From the NCBI RefSeq assembly GCF_032051675.1, contig NZ_CP116968.1, forward strand, positions 2,232,001-2,296,000: 64,000 bases of DNA, written 5' to 3'. This stretch comes from Candidatus Nitrospira neomarina. Lineage in GTDB: Bacteria; Nitrospirota; Nitrospiria; Nitrospirales; UBA8639. Every line of letters begins with the position of its first letter. Position 1 is the stretch's first letter. The translations under genes were made by a program, and so were the position numbers. This document shows positions 19,324-28,624 of this stretch, piece after piece. Below the pieces are notes generated by a model that had not been told where the DNA came from, did no database searches, and saw only the letters and a list, made by a program, of their open reading frames with translations.

Positions 19324-19400
19324 TGGTGCCCCCGACACGAATTGAACGTGCGGCCCGCGGTTTAGGAAACCGCTGCTCTATCCGACTGAGCTACGGGGGC
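19324..19400 (-). tRNA. tRNA-Arg (anticodon CCT)
   Basis: All four arms fold. The acceptor is GCCCCCG with CGGGGGC, the D stem GCTC with GAGC, the anticodon stem GCGGT/ACCGC around loop TTCCTAA with anticodon CCT, and the T arm GCACG-TTCAATT-CGTGT. Discriminator A is followed by an encoded CCA (19324-19326). It decodes AGG. The gene is intact and sits at the border between IS remnants and the PrsT/exosortase segment. A broken copy of its 5' half occurs at 28579-28624. Confidence 0.96.
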
Positions 19401-20399
19401 AGCCTTTAATTTAGAAATGGTACAGATTTCCCACCGGAAAAGAAATTGGCAAGTGCTATTAGGGTGTTTAGTTTACCCAATGACTTCAACCAATCCTCTT
19501 TTATTGAGGTTGCTGTAAAGAATTGAACAATTGGGCGTAATGCTCGTTTTTATGACCAAAGATCATCCCGCCAGTCCCAGTATCCAAACTAATCTTCACA
19601 GGTTCGGCATTGTTCAAAGCCTCAGATCATAAAAACGAAAGTTCTGAACAGCAAAATATCTGAAGCAATCTTGAACGCTTTTCAATAGAATCACCGTAAG
19701 AGCCATCCCCTTCGCCGAATTATACAAAAGAACATACATAGTTAATAGACTTCAAATCCTAACTTAAACAAATCCCCAAGATGATATTGTCGAATATTGG
19801 CAGTCGGAGGCACCAATAGTGAATTACATTTGTTGGTGGCTTCCTCTGATAATGGGATAAATCCCCATTGAAGGTCAAACTAATCTTTATGTTCGATTTA
19901 AAAATTCCTTCCAAGACAAAATCCCATGGAAGGACCCATTACCAGAACTGGCTTAAAGGGAGTACCAGAAAGATCTTATAAATTGGTCCATTCCCTTCAC
20001 CGAGTACCAGGCCCACTCTTTCATCAGAACAGGCATTTCACATTTTAGCCACATTTATTCCAATCAATTTCATTGAGGGCCTGGTATCGACGAGATCAAA
20101 GACAATAGAGCCAATGGGGGGAACCAGAGGATTTTTAACTCACCTCACGCATCCCGAAAACCATGCTCTGGCTAAGAAAACCAATCTCATAGCCACCAGG
20201 CTCTTCAGGCTAAACCACGGAGGTCTGCGAAATCATGAACCAAGGCATATTCCGCTTTCATGCAAACGGACGTTCAAGGGGAGCCCGCCCAAAGTAATTC
20301 GCGCTCAAAAAATCGACGATCCAACGATGCTCAAAAAAGTGTGCCATTTTCCTTTAAAAAAAAGCGCACAAGAAACTTACATCACACCTCAATGGAAGA
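19401..20399. other. Long AT-rich region with decayed coding remnants
   Basis: About 1 kb without an intact gene. The inverted repeat TCGTTTTTATGA (19544-19555) / TCATAAAAACGA (19627-19638) could form a 12-bp stem around 71 bases. On the minus strand near 19900-20130, short protein-like pieces occur in broken frames (VFDLVDTRPSMKLIGINVAKM, then a stop, then ERVGLVLGEGNGPIYKI). This looks like a gene decayed beyond recognition. Confidence 0.45.
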
Positions 20400-22694
20400 T
20401 TACAAACTCTCCAGGGTCGTCCTGGCTTCCTCCGCTCCTGGAAAAGTTGGACTCATCTTTAAAGCAAACTCCAACGTCTTTTTGGCATTATTGGGCTCCC
20501 CCTTTTTAAGAAGGGCCATGCCCAAATGATACCGAACCACCGGGTTTTCCGGCAGTTTTTCAACCGCTTCCCCTAGGAGGGAAACCGCCTTAATATGGGC
20601 ATTCTTTTTATAATAAATCCATCCCAAGGTATCCGCGATATGGGGATTACCGCCTTGCTGGGAGAAGGCATCTTCTGCATGCGCTAACGCCTCATCTAAA
20701 TTGCCCCCATTTTCTGCCATGAGCCAAGCCAAATTATTGGCAGCCGGCGCAAATTTGGGTGAAATCTCCAACGTCTTCCGATAGTACCGTTGGGCCTTCT
20801 CGACTTCATTACGTTGTTCAGCCATTATCCCAAGGATCATATGTGCAAAAGCCGCCTTGGGGTTTTTGTCCAACAGACGTTCATATTCCATGACCGCCTC
20901 ATCAACCCGATTCATTCGATGGTATAATTCGGCCAGGTTCATATAAGAATCTTGCAACTGATCGTTCAAATCCAGCGCTTGCTTAAACGCCTTCTCCGCT
21001 TGATCAATCTGCTTCGCCTGCATCCAGAGGCGTCCTAATAAATTATAGAAATACGGGTTTTTAGAAGACCGTTCAATTTGTTGTTGCACCCGTTCTCTAG
21101 CTTGCGGTGCTTCTCCCATCGACAGTCGGATATTGGCAATGTGACTCAAAGCTTGCACAAAATCGGGATTGTACTTAAGGGCTTCCTCAAAATGGTCGAT
21201 GGCTTCTTGGACTTTCTTATCCTGTTGGTCAATGAGGCCTAATTGAAAATGGGCGATCGCATCTTGAGGGATTTGGTCAATGATCGCTTGATACACATTT
21301 TTCGCCGATGAAAAGTCTTTTTCACCAAAGTAGGCCTGTCCCAGGATATGGACGGCTTGGACATCACGAGGATTGAGACGAATGGCCATTTGTGCTTCCT
21401 CAATGGCCATTTTGTATGATCGCTCAGCCATACGGGCCACCGCCAAGGCCTTTCGCACCTCTCGATCTTGTGGAGCTAATTTCTTGGCTTCTGTGAATTC
21501 TTGAATCGCTTGGACCGTCTCATTTTTTTGCGCAAACGCTGATCCCAAATACTGATGGGCCATTGCCTGGTTGGGCTCATCCTTAATAATTGCTTGAAAT
21601 AAGGGAATGGCTTCATCCACGTTTCCACGCCCCAGTATTAGTCTGGCTTCAAAAATCTTAGTCACAATGCTCTTCGATTTGGCTTCTAACAGCGGCTTCA
21701 TAAGTTTTTCGACATCATCCCATTGTCGGTTATCCAGATAGAAATTGATCAGCGAATTTCTAGCCGGATCAGATTTGGGGTTCAACTCCACCCCCTTTTG
21801 AAAATGTGCTGACGCTTTCGCACCATCCCCAATAAACGTATAGAATTCACCCAAAAACATTTGGGGTACTTCACTCGCGGGTTTGCGTGTGGCGAGCCGT
21901 TGATAGATCTCTTCCGTTTCTTTCCATTTTTGGTTAGTTTGATAATAACCTGCAATTTTCACGTAGTAATCATAATTCTCTGGATCTAACGCCAGGACTT
22001 CCTGAAAAAGGGCTTCGGCTTCGGTATTTTTTCCTTGCAGCGAGTAGAATTCGCCCTTGGCCAGAATAAGCGTGGGCGAATTTGCCTTCTTGGTTAATCC
22101 TTTGTCCAGAACGTCCTCAGCTTCCTCGGGTTTTTCAAGGATCAGATAGGCACGCGCCAGATCGACGTATACCTGCTCATTGTCGGGATCAAGTTCCAAA
22201 GATTTTTTGAGTTCTTCAATGCCCTTCTCGAAGTCCCTTTCCATAATCAAACTTCGGCCTTGTAGCAGATGGCCTTTGGGATCGTTTGGGGAGGAAACCA
22301 ACACGACTTCCGCATGTTGTTTCGCCTTTTGGGGTTGTTGGGAAAGCAGATACAATTCACCGAGTTTAAGTTGGGCATCCTGTATGGATGGATCCAACTC
22401 GACAGCTTTGGTAAGTTCCCCAAACGCCGACTGAAGATCAGGCATTCCACCCAATTTGAGGTGAATCAAAGCCATTTGATGATAGGCCTTAGCATCCTTC
22501 GGATCGAGGTGGACGACATTCTTCAATTCGATGAGTGCTTCTTGATATTTTTGCTCCTCAAAATAAGCTTTTCCCCGCTCCTGATGTCTAGCCTTTTTTT
22601 CCTCGTCCGATAACTGGGTACAGTTGGCGATATTGACGAGCAAAAATGGAAGAACCACACAGCACAAAAATGCCATTCTGGTTTTATGTCTCAT
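20400..22694 (-). CDS. prsT: PEP-CTERM/XrtA-system TPR protein PrsT
   Basis: 764 residues from the ATG at 22694, which has AGGGA 5 bases upstream; the in-frame TTG at 22721 is less likely. The N-terminal hydrophobic segment (MAFLCCVVLPFLLVNIANC) ends at Cys25, a poor lipobox with Asn before Cys. It may be a lipoprotein as in the family, or simply secreted. The rest is about 20 consecutive 34-residue TPR units, e.g. GKAYFEEQKYQEALIELKNV, typical of the long PrsT lipoprotein of exosortase A loci. It probably scaffolds EPS assembly or export at the outer membrane. It lies between tRNA-Arg and the PEP-CTERM gene and is transcribed away from the latter. Confidence 0.88.
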   Translation of the reverse strand: MRHKTRMAFLCCVVLPFLLVNIANCTQLSDEEKKARHQERGKAYFEEQKYQEALIELKNVVHLDPKDAKAYHQMALIHLKLGGMPDLQSAFGELTKAVELDPSIQDAQLKLGELYLLSQQPQKAKQHAEVVLVSSPNDPKGHLLQGRSLIMERDFEKGIEELKKSLELDPDNEQVYVDLARAYLILEKPEEAEDVLDKGLTKKANSPTLILAKGEFYSLQGKNTEAEALFQEVLALDPENYDYYVKIAGYYQTNQKWKETEEIYQRLATRKPASEVPQMFLGEFYTFIGDGAKASAHFQKGVELNPKSDPARNSLINFYLDNRQWDDVEKLMKPLLEAKSKSIVTKIFEARLILGRGNVDEAIPLFQAIIKDEPNQAMAHQYLGSAFAQKNETVQAIQEFTEAKKLAPQDREVRKALAVARMAERSYKMAIEEAQMAIRLNPRDVQAVHILGQAYFGEKDFSSAKNVYQAIIDQIPQDAIAHFQLGLIDQQDKKVQEAIDHFEEALKYNPDFVQALSHIANIRLSMGEAPQARERVQQQIERSSKNPYFYNLLGRLWMQAKQIDQAEKAFKQALDLNDQLQDSYMNLAELYHRMNRVDEAVMEYERLLDKNPKAAFAHMILGIMAEQRNEVEKAQRYYRKTLEISPKFAPAANNLAWLMAENGGNLDEALAHAEDAFSQQGGNPHIADTLGWIYYKKNAHIKAVSLLGEAVEKLPENPVVRYHLGMALLKKGEPNNAKKTLEFALKMSPTFPGAEEARTTLESL

Positions 22695-28431: not shown

Positions 28432-28448
28432 AGGTGCTATTTTGGCTA
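27582..28448 (+). pseudogene. IS3-family orfB (DDE integrase), frameshifted
   Basis: The first 201 codons (27582-28187) give MKQLEGDYPLTVLCRVLAMP and the integrase core with the first Asp in WCGDITYVRM and the second in LFHSDQ. A one-base deletion at about 28180 (CAAGTATGAG) ends this frame. The remainder, with the catalytic Glu in [12 protein letters not shown], continues from 28184 in another frame. There is also a change in the normally conserved HSDQGSQY to HSDQVGQY. The shifted frame runs past the right inverted repeat, so the original end is approximate. Confidence 0.83.
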
Positions 28449-28578
28449 ATGGGATTGGGATTTGTGAGAGGAGGAGATGGGTGAGGGGTACCCAAATAAA
28501 AGGAGTTGCTAGCGTTTATGCAGGTAGGAAAAGAAATTACTTGATGCGTCAAGCAATTTTAAACTCTTTCCAAAGTGA

Positions 28579-28624
28579 TTAGGAAACCGTTGAGCTATCC
28601 GACTGACCGACTGAGCTCGGGGGC
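28579..28624 (-). pseudogene. Partial tRNA-Arg copy (5' half)
   Basis: On the minus strand it reads GCCCCCGAGCTCAGTCGG, then a second CAGTCGG-containing unit, then ATAGCTCAACGGTTTCCTAA. It matches the tRNA-Arg(CCT) at 19324-19400 from the acceptor 5' strand through the anticodon loop, with an 8-base tandem duplication in the D arm and a few substitutions. The T arm and 3' acceptor strand are missing. It cannot make a tRNA. It lies in the same orientation as the intact gene, 9.2 kb away. Confidence 0.85.

Follow-up and report, generated by a model that had tools for sequence, protein, structure and literature searches.

An exosortase-bearing segment at tRNA-Arg(CCT) of a Nitrospira genome is very probably a decayed integrative element that re-supplied the tRNA 5' half

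The window analysed here is a 64,000-nucleotide stretch (positions 2,232,001 to 2,296,000) of the 4.80-Mb, single-contig genome of Candidatus Nitrospira neomarina. The 9.2 kb that separate an intact tRNA-Arg(CCT) gene from a broken copy of its 5' half in this window are, very probably, a decayed integrative element (genomic island) that inserted at the tRNA gene and re-supplied the 5' half. Empty and differently filled sites in relatives, breakpoints at the anticodon loop and a decayed integrase gene beside the tRNA carry this reading.

Results

ARAGORN calls an intact tRNA-Arg(CCT) gene at 19324-19400 on the minus strand and no other tRNA-Arg(CCT). Alignment places a second piece at 28579-28624, in the same orientation (minus strand), which runs from the acceptor strand to the anticodon loop, is 89% identical to the 5' half of the tRNA over 28 nt and contains an 8-base tandem duplication. 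The first-pass annotation had described this copy, its orientation and its duplication, and all three are confirmed by ARAGORN, the alignment, shuffling and a genome-wide pattern search. With the 41-nt 5' half the local alignment score was 41, which was equalled in none of 500 shuffles, and a 27-base pattern from the 5' half, allowing up to three mismatches, has exactly two matches in the whole genome (a reversed control pattern has none); the probability that the pair arose by chance is therefore negligible.

The decay of the second piece, with its imperfect match and duplication, would also fit a degenerate separate tRNA-Arg gene or the leftover of a tRNA array, unrelated to the 9.2-kb segment. 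However, the piece ends at the anticodon loop and has no 3' half, and the Rfam tRNA models gave no match to 28579-28624, so that it is not a whole degenerate tRNA. It is embedded in native DNA colinear with empty-site relatives, namely the upstream flank of their intact tRNA, of which they have one at this place, and cleaner 5' halves stand at the same position in two other relatives (G013 and G016). A separate tRNA gene, which had been named at the outset as the alternative to be feared, is thus extremely improbable, and we treat the piece as the displaced and decayed native 5' half of tRNA-Arg(CCT). The native upstream flank, including the old promoter region, occupies 28625-28776 and is colinear with empty sites. 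It is followed by a PA0069-family radical SAM gene (28777-29796, plus strand; NF033668, 372 bits; the ATG at 28777 is the likelier start), which adjoins the tRNA in relatives. On its other side the fragment meets the element end (28427-28578, the element side of attL, between the insertion sequence and the old tRNA half), where TCA follows CCTAA as in G013; only a few bases of this end are in common with G013, which counts, together with the decay of the fragment, against the island reading.

Comparing related genomes at tRNA-Arg(CCT), as the first-pass annotation had proposed, revealed both empty and differently filled sites. The EPS genes, which lie at 10-17 kb in the window, the tRNA and the radical SAM gene are contiguous in G003, G008, G005 and G006, with the EPS genes on the other side of the tRNA; in G011 the tRNA adjoins the radical SAM gene, which covers that side of the site. 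This contiguity is therefore the older order and the 9.2 kb are an insertion. The working tRNA of the window is identical to that of close relatives. In the cleanest relative, G013, the same site is filled with a different, 11-kb segment. There the radical SAM gene is followed by a 40-nt 5' half (100% identical), at which this segment starts, and an intact integrase closes the segment ahead of the tRNA. A second, 12-kb segment runs on from the tRNA, beginning with another integrase and ending at a 45-nt 3' half, next to which stand the EPS genes. The first integrase (366 aa, tyrosine type; PF00589, 4e-30) lies on the same strand as the tRNA and stops a few bases before its 5' end, and the second (359 aa, 32% identical to the first) lies on the opposite strand and ends at the tRNA 3' end. 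Both halves are also present in G016, as in G013 but on separate contigs. A 1.9-kb island relic is left in G018, in which both a 5' half of its own and the integrase have decayed; its element end has AAAGGGGATTGTCGAA in common with G013 when one alignment step is allowed. An open reading frame in this relic (L095:14475-14897) appears STAS-like, judged from sequence only.

In G013, G016, G017 and G060 the 5' halves stop, or the 3' halves start, within a few bases of the anticodon loop, and in G013 and G016 the end of the 5' half and the start of the 3' half fall in the same seven bases, i.e., the anticodon loop plus or minus 1-2 bases. The corresponding 7 nt of the window (TTCCTAA on the tRNA strand; 19362-19368, minus strand) are the presumed crossover, or overlap, region.

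A decayed IS3-family element (about 27209-28426, plus strand, with its ends placed by eye from the terminal repeats and its transposase frame broken) lies within the segment, as first noted, and does not form its boundary; a genome-wide search for other copies found none. Its position about 150 bp from the fragment might suggest that the 5' half was copied by an IS-mediated rearrangement or by segmental duplication. Yet the IS falls short of the fragment, and such copying would leave unexplained why different insertions repeatedly share the same endpoint and have adjacent integrases (G013, G017, G060), which makes this origin very unlikely.

The segment had initially been thought to contain no integrase, which proved wrong. 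A decayed tyrosine integrase gene (int5 type; 19405-19993, minus strand) terminates immediately upstream of the tRNA. Protein comparison detects it as a frameshifted, stop-containing remnant at 19482-19993 (minus strand; E 1.5e-13), at exactly the location of the first G013 integrase, directly upstream of the intact tRNA, and at the DNA level 19319-19881 is 69.6% identical to the intact copy over 570 aligned bases including the tRNA (1.8e-54). The gene is thus a pseudogene in the window, its counterpart at this position in G013 is intact, and remnants upstream of the tRNA also occur in G015, G018 and G007. No further integrase remnants were found in the window. An 11-bp run within the integrase gene, TTTTGTATAAT, is unchanged in intact and decayed copies (window remnant; L093, L095, L103, L107). 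Site-specific integration at the tRNA, which the first-pass annotation had put forward, is upheld by the empty sites in five relatives, the other fillings elsewhere, the anticodon-loop breakpoints and the integrase, intact in G013 and decayed in the window.

We propose that the attP site of the element bore a copy of the tRNA-Arg(CCT) 5' half and that the tyrosine integrase would have joined it to the tRNA gene of the chromosome by a crossover within the 7-bp anticodon loop. The working tRNA gene (19324) would then be a hybrid, with its 5' half and upstream DNA from the element and its 3' half native (an attR-like junction), and the piece at 28579 would be the native 5' half joined to the element end, displaced beside its old neighbour, the radical SAM gene. 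This displaced half, no longer needed, may then have decayed in the window and in G018. As the native tRNA promoter remains with the fragment, a new one has to come from the element, and the native promoter was probably replaced by the 3'-terminal part of the integrase gene. Since the integrase is now a pseudogene, the island would be fixed.

The segment carries a small but complete exosortase module. It comprises prsT, which encodes an XrtA/PEP-CTERM system TPR protein of 773 aa (20400-22721, minus strand; TIGR02917, 409.6 bits with a cut-off of 312.2), a gene for a 190-aa PEP-CTERM protein (23302-23874, plus strand; PF07589) and xrtA, a 532-aa exosortase A fused to an EpsI/DUF3485 domain (24817-26415, minus strand; TIGR03109, 319 bits with a cut-off of 208; PF09721, PF11984). 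XrtA and PrsT therefore score above their family cut-offs and are accompanied by at least one PEP-CTERM substrate, as is required of an exosortase A/PEP-CTERM system. This is the only exosortase/PEP-CTERM set detected in the genome, and the island protein is the only PEP-CTERM protein found by PF07589, a model of 24 residues that can miss members. The genome thus appears to have an exosortase A with a single PEP-CTERM substrate, which would be unusual for the system. The same search found no PEP-CTERM protein in eight same-genus relatives without xrtA (G003, G007, G009, G011, G013, G016, G018, G019), some of the relatives being incomplete MAGs; G005, G006 and G008 carry a different exosortase and 23-25 PEP-CTERM proteins.

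Among the relatives searched, xrtA of the window type (78-79% identity) occurs only in G015 and G004, in both beside the radical SAM gene. One G015 contig carries prsT, the integrase remnant and the tRNA in colinear order, and a second carries the radical SAM gene and xrtA; in G004 xrtA adjoins the radical SAM gene. The 5' half was sought in both genomes, whose contigs break inside the island, and was not found. The same gene order without a second tRNA piece, an observation that the first-pass annotation had held to speak against its reading, is literally present in these two genomes, but nothing of the native flank next to the radical SAM gene can be recognised there any more, and the piece itself has most likely been lost through decay. 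Because this xrtA is found among relatives only at this site and the sole PEP-CTERM protein lies inside the island, the data support a history of the exosortase module separate from that of the EPS genes, as had been suspected; in relatives without this xrtA, the EPS genes stand in one uninterrupted block with the tRNA and the radical SAM gene.

We infer that the exosortase genes were cargo brought in by the integrative element. Alternatively, the insertion is real and these genes joined the island later, through homologous recombination or IS activity. The G018 relic, which has a decayed integrase and no exosortase genes, the G013 element, whose cargo consists of a glycosyltransferase and other genes, and the IS3 copy within the window island would all be compatible with later entry, whereas the joint occurrence of module and island site in all three genomes with this xrtA (window, G015, G004) favours cargo; we regard later entry as plausible but somewhat doubtful.

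On the 3' side of the tRNA the window has about 1.7 kb of extra DNA (17340-19319), which is absent from the empty-site relatives and is 83% similar to G015 over 215 bp. This DNA may stem from a second event overlapping the island insertion. A decayed 3' half, as expected from an event on that side, was sought in 17000-19318 and none was found; the best score was equalled or exceeded in 40% of shuffles.

Nearly all relatives of the integrase that exceed about 44% identity come, among named genomes, from Nitrospira or Nitrospirales, and where a tRNA was found beside a family integrase it lies at the integrase 3' end. Two arrangements occur. In the 5'-type the integrase shares the strand of the tRNA and points toward it (Arg CCT, TCT and ACG; Thr TGT; Pro TGG; Gly CCC; Leu TAA and CAA), and in the 3'-type integrase and tRNA converge (Leu CAG and GAG; Thr CGT; Phe; Lys). 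A quick tree of 71 integrases, some of its branches long, requires 9 changes of side, compared with 21.3 when the labels are shuffled (no value as low in 500 shuffles); well-supported branches force at least 7 of the changes. Side is therefore heritable but switches. Besides the window site, 5'-half partners accompany intact family integrases of independent elements at tRNA-Arg(ACG) in G017 (7.9 kb, 100%), tRNA-Arg(TCT) in G060 (24.5 kb off, 98%) and tRNA-Arg(CCT) in G064 (87 kb away, 83% against an Arg(TCT) query); the 10 kb read at the other 5'-type loci showed no partner in most cases. At three loci one tRNA stands between two different integrases, at its 5' and 3' ends: Arg CCT, Arg TCT and Thr TGT (L093:14898-17171 of G013, L217 and L222). 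Viral contigs yielded one close integrase (L293), which is followed by an 18-nt tRNA-Leu 3' end and is therefore of the 3'-type.

A promoter for the tRNA inside the integrase 3' end is predicted. The candidate is a sigma70-like pair, TTTACC-N17-TAACAT in G013 and G018, with TAATAT in G015; the window counterpart, TTTCTT-N17-TACCAT, is weaker, and TAACAT is also present in the native flank. Across 32 related integrases, promoter-like pairs score higher in 5'-type than in 3'-type ends (nominal p of 0.011 for the score and 0.028 for z), a difference that is only suggestive because the integrase sequences are related.

Several further features of the family were seen. By eye, AAGTnnTTGA was seen in many elements of the 5'-type and in some of the 3'-type, located between the integrase stop and the tRNA or extending across them, apparently in more than one reading frame (L165, L166, L167, L200, L213, L215, L217, L218, L220, L223, L225 and the 3'-type integrase L093:16095), and is a candidate arm-binding site of the integrase. 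At L170 (G007 C75) and L200 (G007 C1) the integrase frames enter the tRNA gene by 38 and 22 bp, as far as the presumed crossover. At tRNA-Arg(TCT), a 5'-type element of 24.5 kb (L223:1100-9424) encodes a Rep_trans replication protein, a Zot-family filamentous-phage assembly ATPase and RadC; some 5'-type elements therefore look like filamentous prophages.

Discussion

The window island belongs to a known minority class of islands that re-supply the 5' half of a tRNA: in Islander, 159 of 3919 islands have a 5' tDNA fragment (PMC4383910). The initial observation that the 5' half is repeated here, and not the 3' end, was thus both correct and a mark of this class. Islander 5'-fragment islands and the window island alike show a whole tRNA, an upstream 5' fragment in the same orientation, the island bracketed between them and a site in the anticodon loop, a known tRNA subsite for crossover; empty sites were found in relatives as well. 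The window island differs from the class in that its tyrosine integrase gene is a pseudogene, because of which the Islander integrase-ORF filter would drop it, and in its exosortase/PEP-CTERM cargo.

Archaeal pTN3-like integrases also target the 5' half, and their promoter is reported to drive expression of the tRNA, an arrangement that is rare in bacteria (PMC8371274); the pTN3-type integrases of Thermococcus serve as the comparison system (PMC5495485). These are archaeal and their integrase gene is split on integration, whereas elements of the window type are bacterial and their integrase gene stays whole, ending before or just inside the tRNA. The likeness considered here is one of site use; of the pTN3 traits the 5' half is found in the window and a promoter for the tRNA is predicted. 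Classical 3'-half islands share with this family the integrase family itself and the position of the integrase 3' end at the tRNA, and several have the same anticodon-loop crossover. Unlike the window island, they carry a 3' half, keep the native promoter and have integrase and tRNA convergent. In mycobacteriophage tRNA-dependent lysogeny the supply of a host tRNA is likewise taken over by an element, but the host's own copy is destroyed and the phage provides a tRNA gene in its stead (PMC10865867), whereas in the window the tRNA would be rebuilt at the junction.

It is tempting to speculate that the Nitrospirales integrase lineage as a whole takes over tRNA transcription, with a 5' half in attP and a promoter in the integrase 3' end, and that it has switched sides repeatedly, with two-sided tRNAs possible; such switching would be eased because the anticodon stem-loop is nearly symmetric. 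We hold this wider reading tentatively, at just short of an even chance. A limited open-access literature search, which covered Nitrospira exosortases and islands at tRNA genes of Nitrospira, turned up neither a title nor an abstract on a case of the window type. Repeated side-switching within one bacterial integrase lineage, two-sided tRNAs and exosortase cargo were not found described in this limited search.

The island accounts for the separation between the EPS genes of this nitrifier and its only detected PEP-CTERM/exosortase set, and it documents a bacterial hotspot at which elements use either half of one tRNA. Such islands would escape methods that are restricted to 3' tRNA fragments or that depend on the integrase being intact. 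Two questions become testable, namely who transcribes the tRNA after integration with a 5' half and how an integrase lineage changes side. If the reading proposed for the lineage is true, a host tRNA would be under the control of the element.
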